The notes under the pieces: generated by a model
The model's input: only the letters and a program-made list of their open reading frames with translations
Database searches by the model: none
Told to the model about the DNA's origin: nothing
In this document: piece after piece, positions 39,108-48,221 of the stretch
How the letters are laid out: each line of letters begins with the position of its first letter
How positions within the stretch are numbered: position 1 is the stretch's first letter
Source: Clostridia bacterium
GTDB taxonomy: Bacteria > Bacillota > Clostridia > Christensenellales > Aristaeellaceae
Length of the DNA stretch: 48,757 nucleotides
Direction of reading: 5' to 3'
Assembly: GCA_017448975.1 (NCBI GenBank)
Contig: JAFSKN010000021.1
Span: 1-48,757 of the forward strand
Translations under genes and position numbers: made by a program

Positions 39108-40088
39108 ATGCAGAACAATGTACGCCCCGAAACCATGGAACGGATCACCACCCCCGCCCTGGCCCAGGCTTTCATTCAGGAACAATTGGCCGCCCTCAAA
39201 GCCCAGGTGGGAAACAAAAAGGTGCTGCTGGCCCTGTCCGGCGGCGTGGATTCCTCCGTTGTGGCCGCGCTGCTCATCAAGGCCATCGGCCAGAACCTGG
39301 TCTGCGTGCACGTGAACCACGGCCTGCTCCGCAAGGGCGAGCCCGAGCAGGTGATCCAGGTGTTCCGCAACGAAATGAACGCCAACCTGATCTATGTGGA
39401 CGCGGTAGACCGGTTCCTGGACAAGCTGGCGGGCGTCAGCGATCCCGAACAGAAGCGCAAGATCATCGGCGCGGAATTTATCCGCGTGTTCGAGGAAGAA
39501 GCCCGCAAGCAGGAGGGCATCGAATTCTTAGCCCAGGGCACCATTTATCCCGACATCCTGGAAAGCGGCCCCGTCAAGGCCCATCATAACGTGGGCGGCC
39601 TGCCCGAAGACCTGAAATTTGAGCTGGTGGAGCCCCTCAAGTTCCTCTTCAAGGATGAAGTGCGCGTGGTGGGCCACGAATTGGGCCTGCCGGACGGCAT
39701 GGTGTACCGTCAGCCCTTCCCCGGCCCGGGCTTAGGCGTGCGCTGTGTGGGCGCCATCACCCGGGACCGCCTGGAGGCCGTCCGCGAAAGCGACGCCATC
39801 CTGCGGGAAGAATTCGCCAAGAACGGCCTGGAGGGCAAGGTGTGGCAGTATTTCACCATCGTGCCCGATTTCAAAACCGTGGGCGTCAAGGACAATAAGC
39901 GCTGCTTTGAGTGGCCCGTGGTGCTCCGCGCCGTCAACACCCGCGACGCCATGACCGCCACCGTGGAGGACGTGCCCTTCGCCCTCCTCCAGCACATCAC
40001 CCAGCGCATCACCGCCGAAGTCCCCGGCGTCAACCGCGTCCTGTTCGATTTGACGCCCAAGCCCACCGGGACCATCGAATGGGAATGA
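39108..40088 (+). CDS. guaA: GMP synthase, ATP-pyrophosphatase subunit (no glutaminase domain)
   Basis: 326 residues corresponding only to the C-terminal two thirds of ordinary GuaA. The PP-loop is VLLALSGGVDSSVVAALL, FLAQGTIYPDILES binds XMP/AMP, YRQPFPGPGLGVRCVG follows, and the dimerisation domain ends with LFDLTPKPTGTIEWE. It aminates XMP to GMP using ammonia. The N-terminal amidotransferase domain (about 190 residues) is absent and the upstream DNA is non-coding, so a separate glutaminase subunit must exist elsewhere or free ammonia is used. AAAGGAGG lies eight bases before the ATG. Confidence 0.94.
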   Translation: MQNNVRPETMERITTPALAQAFIQEQLAALKAQVGNKKVLLALSGGVDSSVVAALLIKAIGQNLVCVHVNHGLLRKGEPEQVIQVFRNEMNANLIYVDAVDRFLDKLAGVSDPEQKRKIIGAEFIRVFEEEARKQEGIEFLAQGTIYPDILESGPVKAHHNVGGLPEDLKFELVEPLKFLFKDEVRVVGHELGLPDGMVYRQPFPGPGLGVRCVGAITRDRLEAVRESDAILREEFAKNGLEGKVWQYFTIVPDFKTVGVKDNKRCFEWPVVLRAVNTRDAMTATVEDVPFALLQHITQRITAEVPGVNRVLFDLTPKPTGTIEWE

Positions 40089-40195: not shown

Positions 40196-40352
40196 CCTAA
40201 AGATGGGAACCCTTAACGTATAATACGAATGAGATACTTTCATTAAGAAGGGTAAGACAAGAAGCAGCATGGGCAGACAACTTTAGGAAAACCGGCGATA
40301 TACGCACCACGCGGTGCATACATTGCCGGTTTTATAAGTCTGCCTGTTTTTT
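40196..40352 (+). ncRNA. Candidate structured small RNA with its own terminator
   Basis: In a 360-bp gene-free gap. CCTAAAG (40196) pairs with CTTTAGG (40281), enclosing ACCCTTAA / TTAAGAAGGGT (40209-40253) and an AATGA / TCATT hairpin. A nested terminator follows: GGCAGAC (40272) with GTCTGCC (40338) outside, AAAACCGGC / GCCGGTTTT inside, and a final TGTTTTTT. A TATAAT at 40219 has no good -35. No match to a known class was recognised. Confidence 0.4.
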
Positions 40353-40450: not shown

Positions 40451-41662
40451 TCACAGATCATCCAGTTCGGGCAGTTCCGGAGTATCGTCTTCCTCAAAGG
40501 TTTCTTTTCCCAGCTCGGTGATTTTGGTTTTCCCGGCTTCGCCATACTGATATAACTGATCAAAAAACTCGATAGCGGCGCGGATTTTCGTGCGCAGCAG
40601 ATAACCGCCTGATTCGGTGGCGGCATAGATAGCTTCCGGGGATACGGCGGGATGCCAGTCATAAGCCCGACCGTGGAAATCCTGGATGCTCATGAGCACA
40701 TGCAAAATCTCGTCTTTGGTCAGCGGGACCAGCTCCGGCGCGCCGAGAATGGCGTTCAGGGTGGCGCTGGCGGCTTTCAAGTTGACGGGATCGTCCGCGA
40801 ACACGGAGGAAACATTTTCTGTTTCATGCTTTTTTTCAATCACATCCTCCGTATAGGACGCGCTGAACGCGAAGAGGCTGAACACGTTTTCCATCCGGGG
40901 ATTGGGCTGCAAAAATGCCTGCATTTCCCGATAGCCTTTTGCCCGTGCTTTTTTTCCAAGACGGCCCATGAGCTCCGCTTCATCAAACAGCAGCACCCAG
41001 CCGCCGCAGCCAAGCTGCCGGAACAAATGGCTCATGAAGCAGAAATAGTCCATGGCGTGCTTCGTTTTGCTGAAATTCTGATTGAATTTGGCAGGCGTGC
41101 CGGTGATGCGGCGATAGCTTTTTTTGATCACCGCGCCGGAAACGAAATCCCCCTCCAGGTCGTTCAGGAAAGCGGAACGTTCTTCTTCCTCCTGGGTGCC
41201 CAGCATGGCTTTCAACAGGAAATACAGCTTATCTGTCTCCAATTCCTTGGCAGCGTAGGCCATCAATTCATTGGCCACGCTGCTGCCCTGGGTCATTTCT
41301 TCCAGCTTTGCCCGGAAGCCGGGCTGTTGAGCGCCGGGCAGATAGGTGTTGGCAATCAGCTTCTGGTATAGCAGCCAGGGCTTATCCATGGGTGTTTCTT
41401 TGCCCAGTGATACATAGGACACGGCCATATTTTCAGAGGACGCCATATTAAATACAGTGTTGAGCAAATGGGTTTTCCCTTCGCCGTACCGCCCGGTAAA
41501 GATCATGCCGCTGGAGCAGCCCGTTTCCCGTACATCGTCCAGCCGGGAGCGGATTTTTTTCAGCATGGCAGGTCGGGCTTCGGAAAAGTATTCCCCTACG
41601 GCGCGGGAAGGAACACCCGAACGCAGGGCTTCGATCACATGCCTGGCATTGAAATCAAACAC
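40451..41662 (-). CDS. DUF2791/BrxD-like AAA ATPase (second of pair)
   Basis: A 403-residue P-loop ATPase. It begins FNARHVIEALRSGVPSRAV, the N-terminal signature of the DUF2791 (BREX BrxD-like) family. Walker A is TGRYGEGKTHLL (residues 56-67), and Walker B is GWVLLFDEAELMGRL. A later sensor-like region reads LFAFSASYTEDVI, and the acidic C-terminus ends ETFEEDDTPELPELDDL. It starts at GTG with AAGGAGGGG six bases upstream and overlaps the preceding ATPase gene by 8 bases. It is probably a partner of that ATPase and of the divergent helicase, plausibly sensing or loading DNA in a defence reaction. That role is inferred from family context. Confidence 0.8.
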   Translation of the reverse strand: MFDFNARHVIEALRSGVPSRAVGEYFSEARPAMLKKIRSRLDDVRETGCSSGMIFTGRYGEGKTHLLNTVFNMASSENMAVSYVSLGKETPMDKPWLLYQKLIANTYLPGAQQPGFRAKLEEMTQGSSVANELMAYAAKELETDKLYFLLKAMLGTQEEEERSAFLNDLEGDFVSGAVIKKSYRRITGTPAKFNQNFSKTKHAMDYFCFMSHLFRQLGCGGWVLLFDEAELMGRLGKKARAKGYREMQAFLQPNPRMENVFSLFAFSASYTEDVIEKKHETENVSSVFADDPVNLKAASATLNAILGAPELVPLTKDEILHVLMSIQDFHGRAYDWHPAVSPEAIYAATESGGYLLRTKIRAAIEFFDQLYQYGEAGKTKITELGKETFEEDDTPELPELDDL

Positions 41663-42890
41663 GGGTTTCCCCTCCTTCCACCAAAGCGCGGTTCATGAGA
41701 TACGGAAGCCCCAGTCCGCCAAATTCCGCCCGATCCTTGATCTCTTTTGCCTGTTCCCGGTTCAGAGGCGTCAGTTCCTTTTCCGCGTCCACCAGCGCAA
41801 AAGCAAGTTTTTGTGACATTTCACACAATATATCTTCATTGTACATTTCATCGGCGTAACGATCCAGGTCTATGATGTCCGCGAAGCGGTTGAACCGGGT
41901 GGAAACCACCTCGTTCTGAACGCGCATCCACAGCGCCTGATAGGATTTCATGCCGTAACTGTCGTCGTCCATCAGTTCCCGGCGGAAGCAGAGCAGGAAC
42001 ATCACGTTCCGCATACTGTCGATATCGTCGATCAACTGACGGATGCTTTCGTAGGTATCCTCCCGGCGCAGCTTGGTATAGCGGACGGCGTCGCCGGGCG
42101 CGCGGTTCAGCAGCGTTTCCATATCGTCGATCACAATCATCAGGCTCTTGTAACCTGCCAAACGTACTACTTCGCATAAGGAACGCAGCAGATGCCGGGC
42201 GTTGTATTTGGTGATGCCGGCGGCTGAAAGGCCCAATGCCCGCATCTGGGAAAGCTTTACGGACTTATCGCCATGCAGATAACCCAATATCAGCTCCCGG
42301 TTGGCGTTTTCCAGCAGGGGATGACCCAGCAGGCCGCCCGTCAGTAATTGACAGCAGCCCGCGAACGTGTTATCCAGCCGGGGATTCCTCGAAAAATATC
42401 TCCGCAGAGTGGCGCGGATCTCGCCCTTGGACAGCGGGTCGCCCTCGCCGCGCTCCGCCAGATAGTCCATCAGGCTTTTTCCTGGCACAATGGCGTCGGG
42501 ATCATAGCCCATTTCCCGGATGATTTGATTTGCGCAGCCTGAAAGCACCCGTTCCATATCGCACTGACGGAGGATTTCCAGGTAGATTTCTCGGAAATCG
42601 TGAAGCCAGACATTTTTTGCCGAAAAGGACACGGTCAGAAAGCCCGCCGTCTCCGCCTCTTTCAGCATAACCTGAGCGAAATGGGTTTTTCCGCAGCCCG
42701 GGCGTCCGGTAACGCATTTGATTTTGCTGCCGCCCGCCGGAATATAGGTTTGCAGATATTGTTCGTTCAGAAAACCGGACAAAGAATCCAGGCCCACGGT
42801 GATCTCATCCAGCAGTTCGTTTTGATTCGGGGCTTGGCCTTGCAGCAGGCGCTCGAGTCCCGCCGCCCTGCTTTCGTTCTGTGCTGACAT
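41655..42890 (-). CDS. BrxD-like P-loop ATPase (first of pair)
   Basis: A 411-residue protein related in architecture, but not closely in sequence, to its neighbour. Walker A is TGRPGCGKTHFAQ (about residues 61-73), and Walker B is SLMIVIDDMETLLNR. The middle has YFSRNPRLDNTFAGCCQLL and KYNARHLLRSLCEVVRLAGYK, the latter resembling DUF2791 regions. A conserved-looking arginine segment FLLCFRRELMDDDSYG may be a sensor. AAGGAGG lies eight bases before the ATG. It is 21 bp downstream of the coiled-coil gene and coupled to the second ATPase. Paired ATPases of this type suggest a hetero-oligomer. Confidence 0.75.
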   Translation of the reverse strand: MSAQNESRAAGLERLLQGQAPNQNELLDEITVGLDSLSGFLNEQYLQTYIPAGGSKIKCVTGRPGCGKTHFAQVMLKEAETAGFLTVSFSAKNVWLHDFREIYLEILRQCDMERVLSGCANQIIREMGYDPDAIVPGKSLMDYLAERGEGDPLSKGEIRATLRRYFSRNPRLDNTFAGCCQLLTGGLLGHPLLENANRELILGYLHGDKSVKLSQMRALGLSAAGITKYNARHLLRSLCEVVRLAGYKSLMIVIDDMETLLNRAPGDAVRYTKLRREDTYESIRQLIDDIDSMRNVMFLLCFRRELMDDDSYGMKSYQALWMRVQNEVVSTRFNRFADIIDLDRYADEMYNEDILCEMSQKLAFALVDAEKELTPLNREQAKEIKDRAEFGGLGLPYLMNRALVEGGETRV

Positions 42891-42911
42891 GGAGCCGCCC
42901 TCCTTGAAATG

Positions 42912-43709
42912 TTATTCGTTTCCGCTGTTCAAAGACCGCAAGGTGCTGATAAAGGATTCCACCCCGGCACGGCTCAGCACGCGGATGCCGCTGGCTCCGT
43001 CCCGGCTGGTGCCGAAAGCGTACTGCGCGCCGTTTTTTGTTACCCAGGCGTCGGGGCCTTCCTCATATAGCCGAGCCAGATCAAAAGCGAACGCCTGCAT
43101 ATCGTAATCCTTCCGGGCGCGGGCCATAGGCACCATACTCTTATAAATTTTATTCAGAGCCTGGGTGCTGCCAATACGTGCGCCGGAACGCAGGCAGGTG
43201 ATTTCATAGGCGTCCGAAAGCTCGCTCATAAAGGCTGCTGCCTTGAAAGGCGCGGCGTACAGCTTGGCCTGACCCGCCCGGATCAAATCCGCCACGTAAG
43301 CCGGACGGCAGCTGGGAGCCTTTTTCCGGTCGATATAAACTTCCCCCGCGTGTTCCTCGTCGCTGAGAACACGCACCTTGTAGGGAAACATTTCATACAC
43401 GCCCTTTTCACCTTTCACATCAATGCCCTTGCCCGCGCAGGCATCCAGCAGTTGGCGGGTAAAATCTCCGTCTATAAAATAGGCTTTTGTATCAAAGCCG
43501 TTTACTTCCGCATCCATAACCGCGGCGCGGGCTTTCAATTGTTCCACCGCATCGGCCAAAGCGGAAAGGCCCTTTTTCACTTCATTCAGGTTACCCATTT
43601 CGGTATTCTTTTGAATGGCCTTTTGCAGTTTAGCCACCGTAGCTGCTGATTCCTTTAAGCTTTTATCCATTGCCTGCAATGTATTGAATAGTTCTTCGTA
43701 ATTCTGCAT
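42912..43709 (-). CDS. Coiled-coil protein of unknown function (first gene of ATPase operon)
   Basis: 265 residues with no recognised family. Residues ~1-70 form a heptad-rich coiled coil (LQAMDKSLKESAATVAKLQK, then GLSALADAVEQLKARAAVMD). The rest is an alpha/beta region (TKAYFIDGDFTRQLLDACAG, YKVRVLSDEEHAGEVYIDRK, AYVADLIRAGQAKLYAAPFK) with no metal or nucleotide motif. It lies behind the operon's own consensus promoter and could be the target-recognition or oligomerisation partner for the two ATPases. That is inference from operon structure only. Confidence 0.7.
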   Translation of the reverse strand: MQNYEELFNTLQAMDKSLKESAATVAKLQKAIQKNTEMGNLNEVKKGLSALADAVEQLKARAAVMDAEVNGFDTKAYFIDGDFTRQLLDACAGKGIDVKGEKGVYEMFPYKVRVLSDEEHAGEVYIDRKKAPSCRPAYVADLIRAGQAKLYAAPFKAAAFMSELSDAYEITCLRSGARIGSTQALNKIYKSMVPMARARKDYDMQAFAFDLARLYEEGPDAWVTKNGAQYAFGTSRDGASGIRVLSRAGVESFISTLRSLNSGNE

Positions 43710-43769
43710 TTCTTTCGTTTCCTTTCACATTTGATGATTGCGGTTCGCCTGAACAATGCAAACACGATA

Positions 43770-43798
43770 ATTATAGCCTGTCTTTCCGAAAGTGGCAA
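43770..43798 (-). promoter_or_regulatory. Promoter of the coiled-coil/ATPase operon
   Basis: Minus strand TTGCCA, 17 bases, TATAAT; nine bp from the divergent helicase promoter. Confidence 0.8.
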
Positions 43799-43807
43799 GG
43801 GTTTTGC

Positions 43808-43837
43808 TTGTGGAATTATTGAAAAATATGGTATAAT
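43808..43837 (+). promoter_or_regulatory. Promoter of the helicase gene
   Basis: TTGTGG, 18 bases, TATAAT. The two divergent promoters nearly touch, which would allow joint control. Confidence 0.65.
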
Positions 43838-44031
43838 AACAAGCGAACTGGCCCGCAGGGACAGTTGCGCGTCTCGGCGGGCCCCGTCAGGGCAGCACGC
43901 CGAGCGTTATGGTAAAATGATGAGGAAATTTGCCGAAGGCAAATTAACCGCGTCGGCGGCTCCCGAAGAGAAAGACGCCGACCATCATGGCATATTGTAT
44001 AGGAAAATACGAAAAATCAAGGAGGCTTCCC
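43838..44031 (+). other. Structured leader of the helicase mRNA
   Basis: About 190 bases without a gene. It has GGCCCGC / GCGGGCC, CTCGGCG / CGCCGAG, a perfect AATTTGCC-GAA-GGCAAATT hairpin (around 43928-43947) and GTCGGCG / CGCCGAC. Several stems share bases and so are mutually exclusive, as in a regulatory switch. Confidence 0.45.
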
Positions 44032-45582
44032 GTGCAGCTTTACGATTGGCAGAAAAAATGCCTGCGTGCCTGGGAGAAGAACGACCGCATCGGCATTGCC
44101 AGGGTGGTGACCGGCGCGGGAAAAACGGTATTGGCGCTGGAAGCTGTTCGGCGGATGAGGGAACAATTCCCTGATCTGTCCGTCAAAATCGTGGTCCCCA
44201 CGATTCCGCTTGCCTACCAATGGAAAAGCGCGCTGCTTCAGGATGCCATAACCGGAGATGATCTGCCCGGTTTCTATGGCGGAGGCAAACGGGACGATCC
44301 CGATAATCGGGTCATGATTTATATCGTCAATTCAGCCCGAGATGCATTATCCACACATATTAAAAAGGAATTGGCCCAAAAGCATCATGTGCTGCTGATC
44401 TGTGATGAATGCCATCATTACGCCAGCCCGCAGAACCGCCGTATCTTTGATTTTCTTACACCGGAAATTGCCGCAGGAAGCCTGTATGCATGCATGGGTC
44501 TGTCCGCCACGCCTTTTCAAACGGAAAATGACGCGGCGCTTACCCAGGCGCTGGGCCCTGAAATCTATCATTACAGCTTTGATGAAGCGGTGCGGGAGGA
44601 TATTCTTTCCCCCTTTTCTGTGTGCGAAGTATCCGCTTCCTTTGCACCGGAAGAATTGGCGGAGTACAGCCGATTGAGCGCGGAAATCGGCGTTCTTCTG
44701 GCAAAGCTGTATCAGGAGCATCCCAGCCTGGAAAGGTTAGAAAAGCATAAGTTTTTGCGTACCGTGTCCCATTTGGCCCATGAAGCGGATATGGAGCCGG
44801 AAGACCCGGCCGCCGCTTTCCTGCTGAAAACCTACCAACGGAAGGAAATCAGCGTGCTGGCTTCCTCCCGCGTTCAATGCGGCCTGGCAATCCTGGAAAG
44901 GCTCCGGCCGACGGATCGGATCATTATTTTCTGTGAACGGATCATACAGGCGGAAGAAATGGCAAGGCTCCTGCGCCGCAGTTATGGAAACATCTGTATT
45001 TTGTATCATTCCGGCATGACGAAGGAAGCCAGAGAACGAAACCTGCTTTTATTCCGGGAAAACAGTGCCCGGGTGCTGGTTTCCTGCCGCTGTTTAGACG
45101 AGGGGATCGACGTGCCGGACGCCAACATCGGCATCGTACTCAGCGGCTCCGCCGTAGAAAGGCAGCATATCCAGCGCATGGGACGGCTGATCCGCCGGGC
45201 GGAAGGCAAGGACGCGGCCTGCCTGTATCATATTTCCATCCGGGAAGCCGCCGAGGATTCCGCTTTCTTTCCCGGTTTGAACCAAATGGAAAAGTTTTCC
45301 CTGCGGTACTATCCCGCGGAAAAGGATTTCTCCAATGACCTGTACGAATATATTGCATCCACCCTGCTGAACAGCGCAAAGGCGCATGGACTGACCGGAC
45401 CCGCCTTGTGCGAGTTGCGCGCCTGCCTCATGGAGGGCATGATCCACGCCGATTGCCTGCTGCCGGAAAGCGTAATAGGAAAATGTATTCAAACTGCAAC
45501 GGCCACGCATGAAAAAAATTATTGGCGGTTGATGTTGAAAGTGCATCAGGAATTCTCCAAACAGAATAAAACTTCTTCCTGA
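44032..45582 (+). CDS. SF2 DEAD/DEAH-type helicase
   Basis: A 516-residue helicase that begins near its Q-like motif (QLYDWQKKCLRAW). Motif I is VVTGAGKTVLALEAV (GAGKT at 28-32), motif II ICDECHHYAS (DECH at 125-128), motif III LSATPF, then IIIFCERI, LVSCRCLDEGIDVPDAN and motif VI IQRMGRLIRRAEGK. There is no nuclease or methylase domain. It resembles the compact helicases encoded with BrxD-like ATPases in defence loci. The GTG at 44032 has AAGGAGG six bases upstream and is preferred to an ATG 45 bp earlier, which has none. It is transcribed divergently from the ATPase operon. Confidence 0.88.
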   Translation: MQLYDWQKKCLRAWEKNDRIGIARVVTGAGKTVLALEAVRRMREQFPDLSVKIVVPTIPLAYQWKSALLQDAITGDDLPGFYGGGKRDDPDNRVMIYIVNSARDALSTHIKKELAQKHHVLLICDECHHYASPQNRRIFDFLTPEIAAGSLYACMGLSATPFQTENDAALTQALGPEIYHYSFDEAVREDILSPFSVCEVSASFAPEELAEYSRLSAEIGVLLAKLYQEHPSLERLEKHKFLRTVSHLAHEADMEPEDPAAAFLLKTYQRKEISVLASSRVQCGLAILERLRPTDRIIIFCERIIQAEEMARLLRRSYGNICILYHSGMTKEARERNLLLFRENSARVLVSCRCLDEGIDVPDANIGIVLSGSAVERQHIQRMGRLIRRAEGKDAACLYHISIREAAEDSAFFPGLNQMEKFSLRYYPAEKDFSNDLYEYIASTLLNSAKAHGLTGPALCELRACLMEGMIHADCLLPESVIGKCIQTATATHEKNYWRLMLKVHQEFSKQNKTSS

Positions 45583-46890: not shown

Positions 46891-48221
46891 ACACAGGTAA
46901 AATCAGGCTGTCAGGAAAGAGAGCTGTTTGAATTTCTGTCTGATTGGTTTAAACCAACTCTTGCAGCCCTCGTGGGCCGCGTCCAGGATACGCGCGATTC
47001 CTGCGGCAATGCGATAACCGAAGAAGAAAACTTTCATTTTGATAGGATCAGCGGCTTCCCAAATGTTCAGGTAAATTTGAGAGCTGCTCGGCTTCATAGA
47101 GACAAAGGCCAGATATGCCATACAGATAGTGATGTAGAAATTCAGGGCATTGATGGCAGACAGGCTGCGAACCCGGAAGTTTTCAAAATCGAAAACGGTT
47201 TTCTTACATCGGAAGTATTCCTCGATTCTCCATCTGGAGAAGTAGCACTGGGCAATCCTTGTGACGTCATCCTTGGATGCTAAAGAAATATTGGTTGCCA
47301 GCATCATGGGATGCTCTGTAATTCCGTAAACCAATACCAGCCAGACGGGCTTTCTGGAAGCTGTAATCTGAACCTTCACATGGGACAGATATGCCGTGTG
47401 GTCACTGTTGTGGTATCGAAGGTTTATTTTGATTTTACCCTTGCGCCGATCCCGTAGTTCGGTAACAGGCGTCCATTTGCCATGATACAGTACTTTTCGC
47501 TTTGCCGTCAGCCGTATCACATAATCCTGCCGCAGATCATCCATTTTGAGGAACATTTTGTTGTCGTCGTAGCCTCGATCCATGACGAAAGTCGCTTTTC
47601 CCAGGAGTTTCACACTCTGTTCGATGGCCTCAAAAGTCACTGTGTTCGCGGAGATATAGTCCTTTTCCGATGAAGAATGAATCCGTGAAAATATGCTGAC
47701 TGGCTGTTTGCTCCGTGTGATGGCTACGGCTTCCGTCACGTGATAGCCCTTTTTGTAAACGCTTTTCTTGTCCGTACTCTCCGAGCCATCACGGACGATG
47801 CCCAGCGCTTCAAACTTGTATCCTTCCGGTTTGACAACGTCACTGTCGTCAATCAGTACAACCGGCTTTTCTTCCACCCACTCCCGAACCAAACGCCGGT
47901 AACTTTCCTGCGCGATCTAGGGTACACCCTCTTTCAGGTGTCGAGCCAATCGTTCCACCGCGTTCACTTTCTTGGTCTCTTCGTGCAGTTCGTCTACAAT
48001 ACTGGTCAACAGGCAACTCCCCGACGCCAGCATCCCGTATGTCATATCAGCCGCAAATTTTTGTTCAGGCCGTTCCATCTTCCCAAATATTCTTTTCCCA
48101 AATTCTATAATTGACCGTTTCATTGTGTAGGTTTTTGTGGTAGAATGTTTTTTGAGAGGTCTCCTTTCGACTGTTTAGTGAGAATTTTGTTTCGCACCTT
48201 AATTCTACCACTTTTTGTCGA
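46887..48221 (-). mobile_element. IS4-family insertion sequence (approximate ends)
   Basis: About 1.33 kb around one transposase frame. The ends are set by imperfect terminal similarity: TCGACA...GGTAAAATCAGG on the left and, reversed, TCGACA...GGTAGAATTAAGG on the right. I saw no clear target duplication, so the boundaries are provisional. Confidence 0.6.
46903..48123 (-). pseudogene. IS4-family DDE transposase split by an in-frame amber codon
   Basis: One 407-codon frame interrupted only by TAG at 47917-47919. The 5' part (68 residues, MKRSIIEFGKRIFGKMERPE to RHLKEGVP) and the 3' part continue in the same frame (IAQESYRRLVREW..). DDE residues are in VVLIDDSDVVK, FVMDRGYDDNK and YFSRWRIEEYFRCKK, the last fitting the Y-(2)-R-(3)-E-(6)-K signature of IS4. 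The open part can restart at TTG 47892, but that would lack the N-terminal DNA-binding region. It is probably inactive unless the amber codon is read through. Confidence 0.85.

Follow-up and report, generated by a model that had tools for sequence, protein, structure and literature searches.

A conserved trio of a coiled-coil protein and two BrxD-like ATPases with an exchangeable helicase partner: a probable antiviral gene set of a Clostridia-like bacterium

Introduction

What do four adjoining genes of a Clostridia-like bacterium do, and do they form a defence module of a kind already known? AAA+ ATPases of the BrxD kind adjoin helicases in several defence systems. The genes considered here encode a coiled-coil protein (CC), two BrxD-like ATPases (ATPA and ATPB) and a helicase, and lie in a stretch of 48,757 nucleotides, referred to hereafter as the window. 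The original prediction called them a candidate new module and, more specifically, a minimal relative of type 2 BREX or Shango in which the coiled-coil protein replaced the TerB or Pgl parts. The open-access literature that was searched yielded no description of the set, which is apparently undescribed.

Results

Organization of the locus

All four predicted reading frames (40451..45582) were present and intact, and the 21-bp gap between CC and ATPA and the 8-bp overlap of ATPA with ATPB were confirmed. The features are listed in Table 1. The region in which the promoter of the trio lies could be aligned in three relatives (L004, L005 and L137), and the terminator region (40228-40333) was 75% alike in the locus of the nearest relative. 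Divergent consensus promoters 9 bp apart had also been proposed. The minus strand promoter stood, but the promoter scan called none for the helicase on the plus strand, where the candidate -35 box (TTGTGG, 43808-43813) is poor; if this box, found by eye, is accepted, 9 bp separates the two -35 boxes.

Table 1. Features of the four-gene locus, in window coordinates.
Feature	Position	Strand	Basis
Terminator-like stem-loops 3' of ATPB	40293..40326	both	3 found vs 0.4 expected in shuffles
ATPB, BrxC/BrxD-like AAA+ ATPase, 403 aa	40451..41662	-	PF10923 73.2 bits, E 2.6e-20
ATPA, second BrxC/BrxD-like AAA+ protein, 411 aa	41655..42890	-	PF10923 106.7 bits, E 1.7e-30
CC, first operon gene, 265 aa	42912..43709	-	25-row alignment with invariant columns
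Operon promoter-like site, TTGCCA-17-TATAAT	43770..43798	-	11/12 consensus
Candidate extended -10 for helicase, TGgTATAAT	43829..43837	+	by eye
XPB/PbeA-like SF2 helicase, probably 516 aa	44032..45582	+	start set by SD at 44020-44025

The four proteins

Both ATPases matched the Pfam family BrxC_BrxD (PF10923) above its gathering score of 22.2 bits, as had been predicted. The two differ in their motifs. ATPB has a Walker A (GRYGEGKTH) and a Walker B (VLLFDEAEL) motif; these are kept among its relatives, and D227 and E228 are invariant in the 52 of 52 rows with letters at those positions. Judged by its motifs, ATPB would be the catalytically complete subunit. ATPA of the window has an intact Walker A motif (GRPGCGKT) and a Walker B motif (MIVIDDME) that lacks the usual glutamate. 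Across loci this glutamate is mostly absent, and Walker A is lost clade by clade, in the CRISPR clade described below and in one SNF2 clade. Three ATPA arginines are conserved (R323 in 56/56 rows, R232 in 55/55, R284 in 55/56) and are no more than candidates for an arginine finger.

CC had no family above chance in Pfam, NCBIfam or PADLOC (best E 0.024, 0.028 and 0.038, respectively). Its architecture is a helical hairpin at residues 4-71 followed by an alpha/beta C-terminal part (AlphaFold2 model: mean pLDDT 84.0, pTM 0.69).

The fourth gene, on the opposite strand, encodes an SF2 helicase as proposed (ResIII 2.5e-21, Helicase_C 6.2e-18; motifs GAGKT, DECH, SATP and QRMGRLIR). Its length, given before as 531 aa from a frame open from 43987, was corrected to a probable 516 aa. 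The most likely start is the GTG at 44032, because AGGAGG precedes it by six bases and the frame of the nearest homologue begins at the same residue. In PADLOC the helicase best matched PbeA (PDLC02707, 3.4e-62), over positions 248-630 of the 672 in that profile; a match to TIGR04095 (7.4e-44) reached 150.5 bits, under the cut-off of 600. The closest solved structures are of archaeal XPB, with phmmer matches to XPBII chains at 8e-31.

The genes recur as a set

The co-occurrence expected of a module was found in other genomes. All three genes of the trio (CC, ATPA and ATPB) occurred together in 54 of the 57 loci examined, and in every one of 18 window-type loci measured the helicase lay 5' of CC, at a distance of at most 409 bp; helicase and trio were codirectional in 2 of these 18 and otherwise divergent. 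CC matches were found at 47 places, 45 of them assigned to loci, and ATPA followed immediately 3' of CC in 41 of the 45. The remaining four were a 46-residue match, a fragment, a locus cut by the contig end and one without recognised ATPases. In one sample of 398 genomes of the phylum, 18 had a strong ATPA match (E 1e-18 or better), and CC (E 1e-10 or better) was present in 17 of them. Of the 11 genomes whose ATPA match was weaker, none had CC at this level, and a 59-residue CC fragment turned up in one more genome. The four genes of the window are thus a real, conserved set.

The set is also patchy, occurring in 9 of 200 genomes of the family and 2 of 29 of the genus, its own genome counted in, which makes it accessory. 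Neither CC, ATPA nor ATPB of the window had a match in the phages or viral contigs searched, and the plasmid search with these three proteins gave a single weak partial match, to ATPA.

The partner changes from clade to clade

The trio does not always stand beside an XPB-like SF2 helicase. Depending on the clade, its partner is such a helicase, a Cas3-bearing CRISPR operon, an SNF2 protein, an Upf1-like SF1 helicase or BrxL. A tree built from 55 trio rows gave full support to the branch that separates the 18 rows with the SF2 helicase from the rest, and likewise to the one for the 15 SF1 rows. Partner labels changed 6 times on this tree, against a minimum of 5. Shuffled labels averaged 25.2 changes, and none of 200 shuffles gave so few as 6; a 51-row tree likewise gave 6 changes. 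The BrxL label is represented by two loci and the HTH label by three. The SF1 helicase lay downstream of ATPB in 14 of the 15 rows and upstream of CC in L129. The core is therefore a distinct three-gene trio and the helicase its exchangeable part, which replaces the earlier view of a minimal BREX or Shango relative with a substituted coiled coil.

Five loci (L054, L055, L057, L058 and L059) had no recognised helicase among those of their neighbours that were scanned. An HTH gene lies upstream in L055, L057 and L058, and Hsp70 and metallo-beta-lactamase genes adjoin the trio in L054 and L059. These five loci, and the constancy of the trio, would fit a trio that is a complete defence system by itself, sensor and effector in one (for example an AAA+ machine that blocks replication or kills the cell), with the helicases as separate neighbours or auxiliaries. 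We consider this unlikely, given that whole clades keep one kind of helicase or translocase, as do the 15 SF1 rows and the clade of the window, where its side is constant in all 18 loci.

Sister trios lie inside CRISPR operons

In one group the trio is embedded in type I CRISPR-Cas operons, of type I-A in L050, I-B in L052 and L112, and I-D in L053 and L111; in L051 it adjoins cas6. It is placed between the interference genes and cas1. In the five longer loci a cas1 match was 2, 8, 66, 457 and 1155 bp away from ATPB; in L050 it is no more than a short frame. One trio of the group, L122, adjoins an SNF2 gene instead. The CRISPR group is a single clade and therefore may reflect one recruitment followed by inheritance.

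Proximity to cas1 raises a role in adaptation, in which the trio of the CRISPR loci would aid spacer capture with Cas1 and Cas4, and the set of the window would be a related device for DNA capture or processing, not interference. ATPB lies 2 bp from cas1 in L111 and 8 bp in L112; in L052 and L053 it is found on the same side of the interference genes as cas1, and a Csa1 gene (L052) or a cas4 gene (L112) follows. Helicase or translocase partners recur, however, in clades without a cas1 profile match in the neighbourhoods examined, and we hold the adaptation role to be quite improbable.

Link to defence

The set is linked to defence because its relatives sit in CRISPR operons and next to BrxL; on these sequence relationships it is probably antiviral, that is, anti-phage. 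The suggestion that such loci sit in defence islands fared poorly for window-type flanks, where any signal is weak at best. In the flanks of 17 window-type loci, of whose 152 neighbour proteins 140 were scanned (E 1e-20), mad3 was matched in four members, and REase_III, AbiLi, DEDDh, AriA, two PDC-S48 models and PDC-M12A in single members. Among 139 proteins on other contigs of 15 window-type genomes, mad3 was matched in three and 15 further models in single members, including RtcR types, BrxHI, SngC, DruE, DrmA, RTasPolA and PDC-S09. The output does not give the identity of each member, and we read these 15 models as hits of a small number of helicases, regulators and polymerases.

A weak island signal would suit a function outside defence, in which an XPB-like helicase and its AAA+ loader would make up a DNA-repair or replication-restart cassette or serve to maintain a mobile element. 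Two further points agree with this: among solved structures the helicase is nearest to the XPB/RAD25 repair helicases, and no PADLOC system fits the four genes. The patchy distribution within genus and family and the sister trios in CRISPR operons and beside BrxL argue against such functions, as do, for the mobile element, the results of the phage, viral-contig and plasmid searches. A non-defence function is accordingly improbable in our estimate.

Comparison with known systems

Profile searches found no PADLOC, NCBIfam or Pfam system that fits all four genes. The prediction of a new module was largely right.

Like the BrxD-BrxHI dyad of type 2 BREX, the set ties an ORC/Cdc6-type PF10923 AAA+ protein to an SF2 helicase. 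BREX has one BrxD, whereas the set has two diverged ATPases and CC, and its helicase is XPB/PbeA-like. For the single-ATPase dyad, PMC12839542 suggests that BrxD may load or activate BrxHI. The NCBIfam model BREX_BrxD (NF033438, cut-off 350) gave 90.4 bits for ATPA and 43.3 for ATPB, neither of which reaches the cut-off, and PglZ (PF08665) had no match in the genome of the window, which is 85% complete. PglX, PglW and BrxC had no PADLOC match for CC, ATPA or ATPB (to E 1), nor were they among the best 25 of 39 families for the helicase. Assignment to BREX was rejected on the missed BrxD cut-off and the absence of a PglZ match in this 85%-complete genome. The same two results make it most improbable that the locus is a decayed type 2 BREX, in which BrxD was duplicated, BrxHI replaced and the Pgl genes lost; both ATPases do match BrxD/PF10923 models, yet a trio so deeply conserved is at odds with a decayed remnant.

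Shango (SngABC) is likewise a short gene set with a BrxD-like ATPase and a DEAD/DEAH helicase, according to PMC10250203. It has a TerB protein where the set has CC, and the set of the window has two ATPases, a helicase nearer to PbeA and a clade-dependent partner. CC did not match TerB/SngA in Pfam, PADLOC or NCBIfam, the SngB model of PADLOC matched both ATPases weakly (1.4e-9 and 4.1e-13) and less well than BrxD, and SngC was not among the best 25 of 39 PADLOC families for the helicase. With no TerB protein among the four genes, Shango was rejected.

PbeABCD, of the CxC ABC-ATPase/DndE systems, resembles the set in its helicase, for which the PbeA core is the best PADLOC match. The set differs in that it has no HKD nuclease, PbeC ABC-ATPase or PbeD/DndE. 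The N-terminal part of the PbeA profile is unmatched by the helicase, the HKD motif HxK(x4)D was found in 0 of 19 helicase rows (two rows were partial), CC, ATPA and ATPB had no PADLOC match to PbeC or PbeD, and DndC was not found in the genome. PbeABCD was rejected on the lack of the motif and of PbeC or PbeD in the set.

Type I CRISPR-Cas systems (I-A, I-B and I-D) share the trio itself, in the five operons named above, but there is no Cas gene among the four genes of the window and its helicase is not Cas3. A last likeness is to BREX BrxB/iSTAND, for which PMC12839542 describes an inactive ORC/Cdc6-like AAA+ protein next to an active one. ATPA of the CRISPR and SNF2 clades would resemble such an inactive partner, the relation of ATPA to BrxB having been compared by family scans only.

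Discussion

We propose, with a probability of roughly one half, that the locus is an accessory and probably anti-phage module of two parts, in which a CC-ATPA-ATPB core, an AAA+ machine of the ORC/BrxD type, grips DNA and recruits or licenses the helicase. We infer complex formation, an action of the ATPases on the helicase, DNA as the trigger and the anti-phage function. ATPB would be the hydrolysing AAA+ subunit. Its partner ATPA would bind ATP, or be inert in some clades, and one of its conserved arginines may complete the site of ATPB. CC would be the scaffold, its coiled coil and globular part linking the ATPases to the partner or to DNA. The trio might assemble into an asymmetric heteromeric ring or filament, like that of ORC/Cdc6 or BrxD, which would recognise or grip incoming DNA and then recruit, load or license a DNA translocase. 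In the window this translocase would be the XPB-like SF2 helicase, which may act on the invading DNA by stripping, remodelling or stalling it, and leave it uncut.

Cutting of DNA is not part of the proposal because the Pfam, PADLOC and NCBIfam scans of the four proteins recognised no nuclease. Action without cleavage would be analogous to that of the Pbe systems, for which virus replication is reported in PMC6459918 to halt with no visible DNA cleavage; PMC10853773 disputes this.

A broader and decidedly tentative idea is that prokaryotic immunity has in the trio a general cassette for licensing helicases, joined in turn to XPB-like, Upf1-like, SNF2, BrxL and Cas3 partners, and that in some lineages CRISPR interference requires an undescribed ORC-like loader. 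A constant ATPase part with an exchanged helicase means that the two roles are separable, which opens the loader idea to direct testing. The type I CRISPR-Cas operons with the trio would hold an unrecognised component if it supports Cas3 there.

The gene set in the window

Inspection of the window sequence confirmed the four gene positions of the original prediction (see table), and also the claimed 21-bp gap between CC, the gene for the coiled-coil protein, and ATPA and the 8-bp overlap between ATPA and ATPB, the genes for the two BrxC/BrxD-like ATPases. A helicase start at 43987 was not upheld, GTG at 44032 being the most likely. Of the divergent promoters that had been proposed, the one for the operon corresponds to a good promoter-like site (11/12), but the promoter on the helicase side (+ strand) is no better than plausible. 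Downstream of ATPB there are terminator-like stems (3 observed versus 0.4 expected). The 3.08-Mb assembly (80 contigs, estimated to be 85% complete) contains the window as contig C40.

Both ATPases are PF10923 (BrxC/BrxD) members and are also matched by the PADLOC BrxD and SngB models, but they score far beneath the NCBIfam BrxD cut-off. Pfam, NCBIfam and PADLOC scans gave no family above chance for CC. The AlphaFold2 model of CC, built from six sequences (mean pLDDT 84.0, pTM 0.69), has a helical hairpin (residues 4-38 and 41-71) and an alpha/beta part; compared with known folds, the hairpin alone was matched and nothing further. The helicase belongs to SF2 and its helicase motifs are intact. 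Its top PADLOC model is PbeA, with the helicase part of the model covered, its top NCBIfam model is TIGR04095, with a score under the cut-off, and its closest solved structures are archaeal XPB proteins.

Coordinates of features in the window and in homologous loci (L handles) of other genomes
Locus	Position	Strand	Feature	Remarks
Window	39108-40088		326-aa ORF	presumably resembles C-terminal part of GMP synthase; end about 360 bp from the set
Window	40451-41662	-	ATPB	
Window	41655-42890	-	ATPA	
Window	42912-43709	-	CC	
Window	44032-45582	+	helicase	most likely GTG start, preceded by AGGAGG
Window	46903-48123	-	ORFs	by appearance a broken transposase gene, as originally noted
Window	40228-40333, 40453-43726, 44014-45554		DNA similar to L142	
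L050	8241-11647		trio	cas6, WYL, cas3, cas8a, cas7, cas5a, DUF4282 gene, CC, ATPA, ATPB, short cas1-like frame
L052	4709-7723		trio	cas6, WYL, cas8b, cas7b, cas5b, cas3, CC, ATPA, ATPB, HEPN gene, another small gene, cas1, Csa1; WYL and cas3 by custom profiles
L053	7811-10906		trio	cas10d, unscanned gene, cas7d, unscanned gene, cas3d, short DUF4282-like frame, CC, ATPA, ATPB, DUF4282-like gene, cas1, repeat array (about 51 units); DUF4282 and cas1 by custom profiles
L053	30-3782		CRISPR array	regularly spaced 20-mer CTTTCAGTCCCCTTGTTATC, 51 copies
L111	7236-10241		trio	WYL, cas3, cas3-HD, cas10d, cas11d, cas7d, cas5d, DUF4282-like gene, CC, ATPA, ATPB, cas1 (2 bp); WYL, DUF4282 and cas1 by custom profiles
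L112	7506-10495		trio	cas8b, cas7b, cas5b, cas3, further genes (two without a match in the PADLOC scan), CC, ATPA, ATPB, cas1 (8 bp), cas4; cas4 by PADLOC, other cas genes by custom profiles
L056	1155-3200		brxL	directly 3' of ATPB
L132	9228-11309		brxL	directly 3' of ATPB
L055	8985-10058		conserved gene	upstream of CC; helix-turn-helix domain
L057	11257-12297		conserved gene	upstream of CC
L058	11460-12716		conserved gene	upstream of CC
L059	624-10509	one strand	gene series	trio, unknown gene, Hsp70-like, unknown gene, metallo-beta-lactamase/beta-CASP

Conservation of the trio

When the window was compared with a 20-kb stretch of the contig carrying L142, the locus of the nearest relative, no similarity at E 1e-5 was found outside the stretches listed in the table. 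The set is thus a unit whose surroundings differ between two members of one genus. As for named relatives, the closest are genome assemblies of Clostridiales or Clostridia, one with roe deer rumen in its title; RUG names denote rumen genomes.

Counting its own genome, CC occurs in 2 of 29 genomes of the genus, 9 of 200 of the family and 18 of 398 of the phylum (one a fragment), and also in 5 of 20 genomes of one family (including a 46-residue match) and in 29 of 113 of one class (some fragments). At 41 of the 45 loci surrounding a CC match, ATPA comes immediately after CC. Within the sample of 398 genomes, a strong ATPA match was accompanied by CC in 17 of 18 genomes and a weaker match in 0 of 11; the weaker matches are taken to be ordinary single BrxD-like ATPases. 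All three trio genes are present in 54 of 57 distinct loci, some cut at contig ends. The exceptions are L061 (no CC), L128 (no ATPases recognised) and L133 (cut before ATPB). This co-occurrence in loci and genomes defines CC and the paired ATPases as one operon family. The module is real and conserved and, as far as could be found, undescribed: neither the trio nor its placement in CRISPR operons is described in the accessible parts of the open-access literature, including PMC6459918, PMC10853773, PMC12839542, PMC7988955, PMC10250203 and PMC12458937.

Exchange of the partner between clades

The gene paired with the trio varies. Across the 57 loci the partner was labelled as a window-type helicase (19), an SF1 helicase (15), CRISPR (6), SNF2 (4), an HTH gene (3) or BrxL (2), with no label assigned in 8. 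The window-type helicase lies on the 5' side of CC, within 409 bp, in all 18 loci measured (16 divergent, 2 codirectional). SF1 partners measure about 860-900 aa; the three members scanned contain AAA_11, AAA_12 and a topoisomerase-type zinc ribbon, and two gave an MkoA-like PADLOC reading. The remainder were assigned through sequence clustering. At most loci of this clade (e.g. L113, L115 and L116) the ATPA start lies three bases beyond the CC stop codon, in the same frame. The SNF2 partners of L062 and L122 matched the ZorD and DpdE models, and the two loci with brxL are distant ones. The scanned neighbours of the trio in L054, L055, L057, L058 and L059 include no recognised helicase.

A tree of 55 trio rows required 6 changes of partner label (minimum 5) versus a shuffled mean of 25.2, and a second tree of 51 rows also required 6, although this clustering is partly due to near-copies and the tool warned of long branches. 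In the 51-row tree the window-type and SF1 groups each fell on one side of a branch in 200 of 200 bootstrap trees.

The trio within type I CRISPR-Cas operons

In I-A, I-B and I-D operons the trio is embedded with interference genes on one side and cas1 on the other (see table). In addition, cas6 adjoins ATPB in L051, and CC of L128 lies within an I-B operon. L122 has an SNF2 gene beside the trio although its trio groups with that of L112. The two I-D loci and two I-B loci were not grouped by subtype in the trio tree, suggesting that interference genes may have been exchanged while the trio was retained.

Asymmetry of the ATPases and a likely role in defence

The ATPB P-loop lysine is present in 54 of 54 rows and the Walker B Asp-Glu in all 52 rows that have letters at that position; the three BrxL-side rows carry alanine in place of the first P-loop glycine. 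Walker A of ATPA is kept in every lettered window-type (18), SF1 (17), HTH-side (6) and BrxL-side (3) row and is absent from the CRISPR clade (0 of 8 rows, counting L122) and SNF2 rows (0 of 3). From printed motifs read by eye, a Walker B aspartate followed by glutamate occurs in 1 of 55 ATPA rows, and the aspartate is glycine in two CRISPR-clade rows. Judged by motifs, the pair resembles a motor subunit and a putative regulatory or inert partner. Arginine 323 of ATPA is invariant (56 of 56 rows); its role as an arginine finger is conjectural.

The closest published idea is that BrxD may be a loader or activator of BrxHI (PMC12839542). PbeABCD was reported to halt the replication of virus DNA with no cleavage visible (PMC6459918), a block that would fit the window set, none of whose proteins was recognised as a nuclease. 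That reading has been disputed by pointing to the HKD nuclease of PbeA (PMC10853773), a domain that the window helicase lacks. As for a defence island, PADLOC matches at E 1e-20 were similar in number for flank proteins of window-type loci and for control proteins from other contigs of such genomes. The list of flank matches was more defence-like (REase_III, AbiLi, AriA), yet the counts are of single members. A role of the module in defence is likely.
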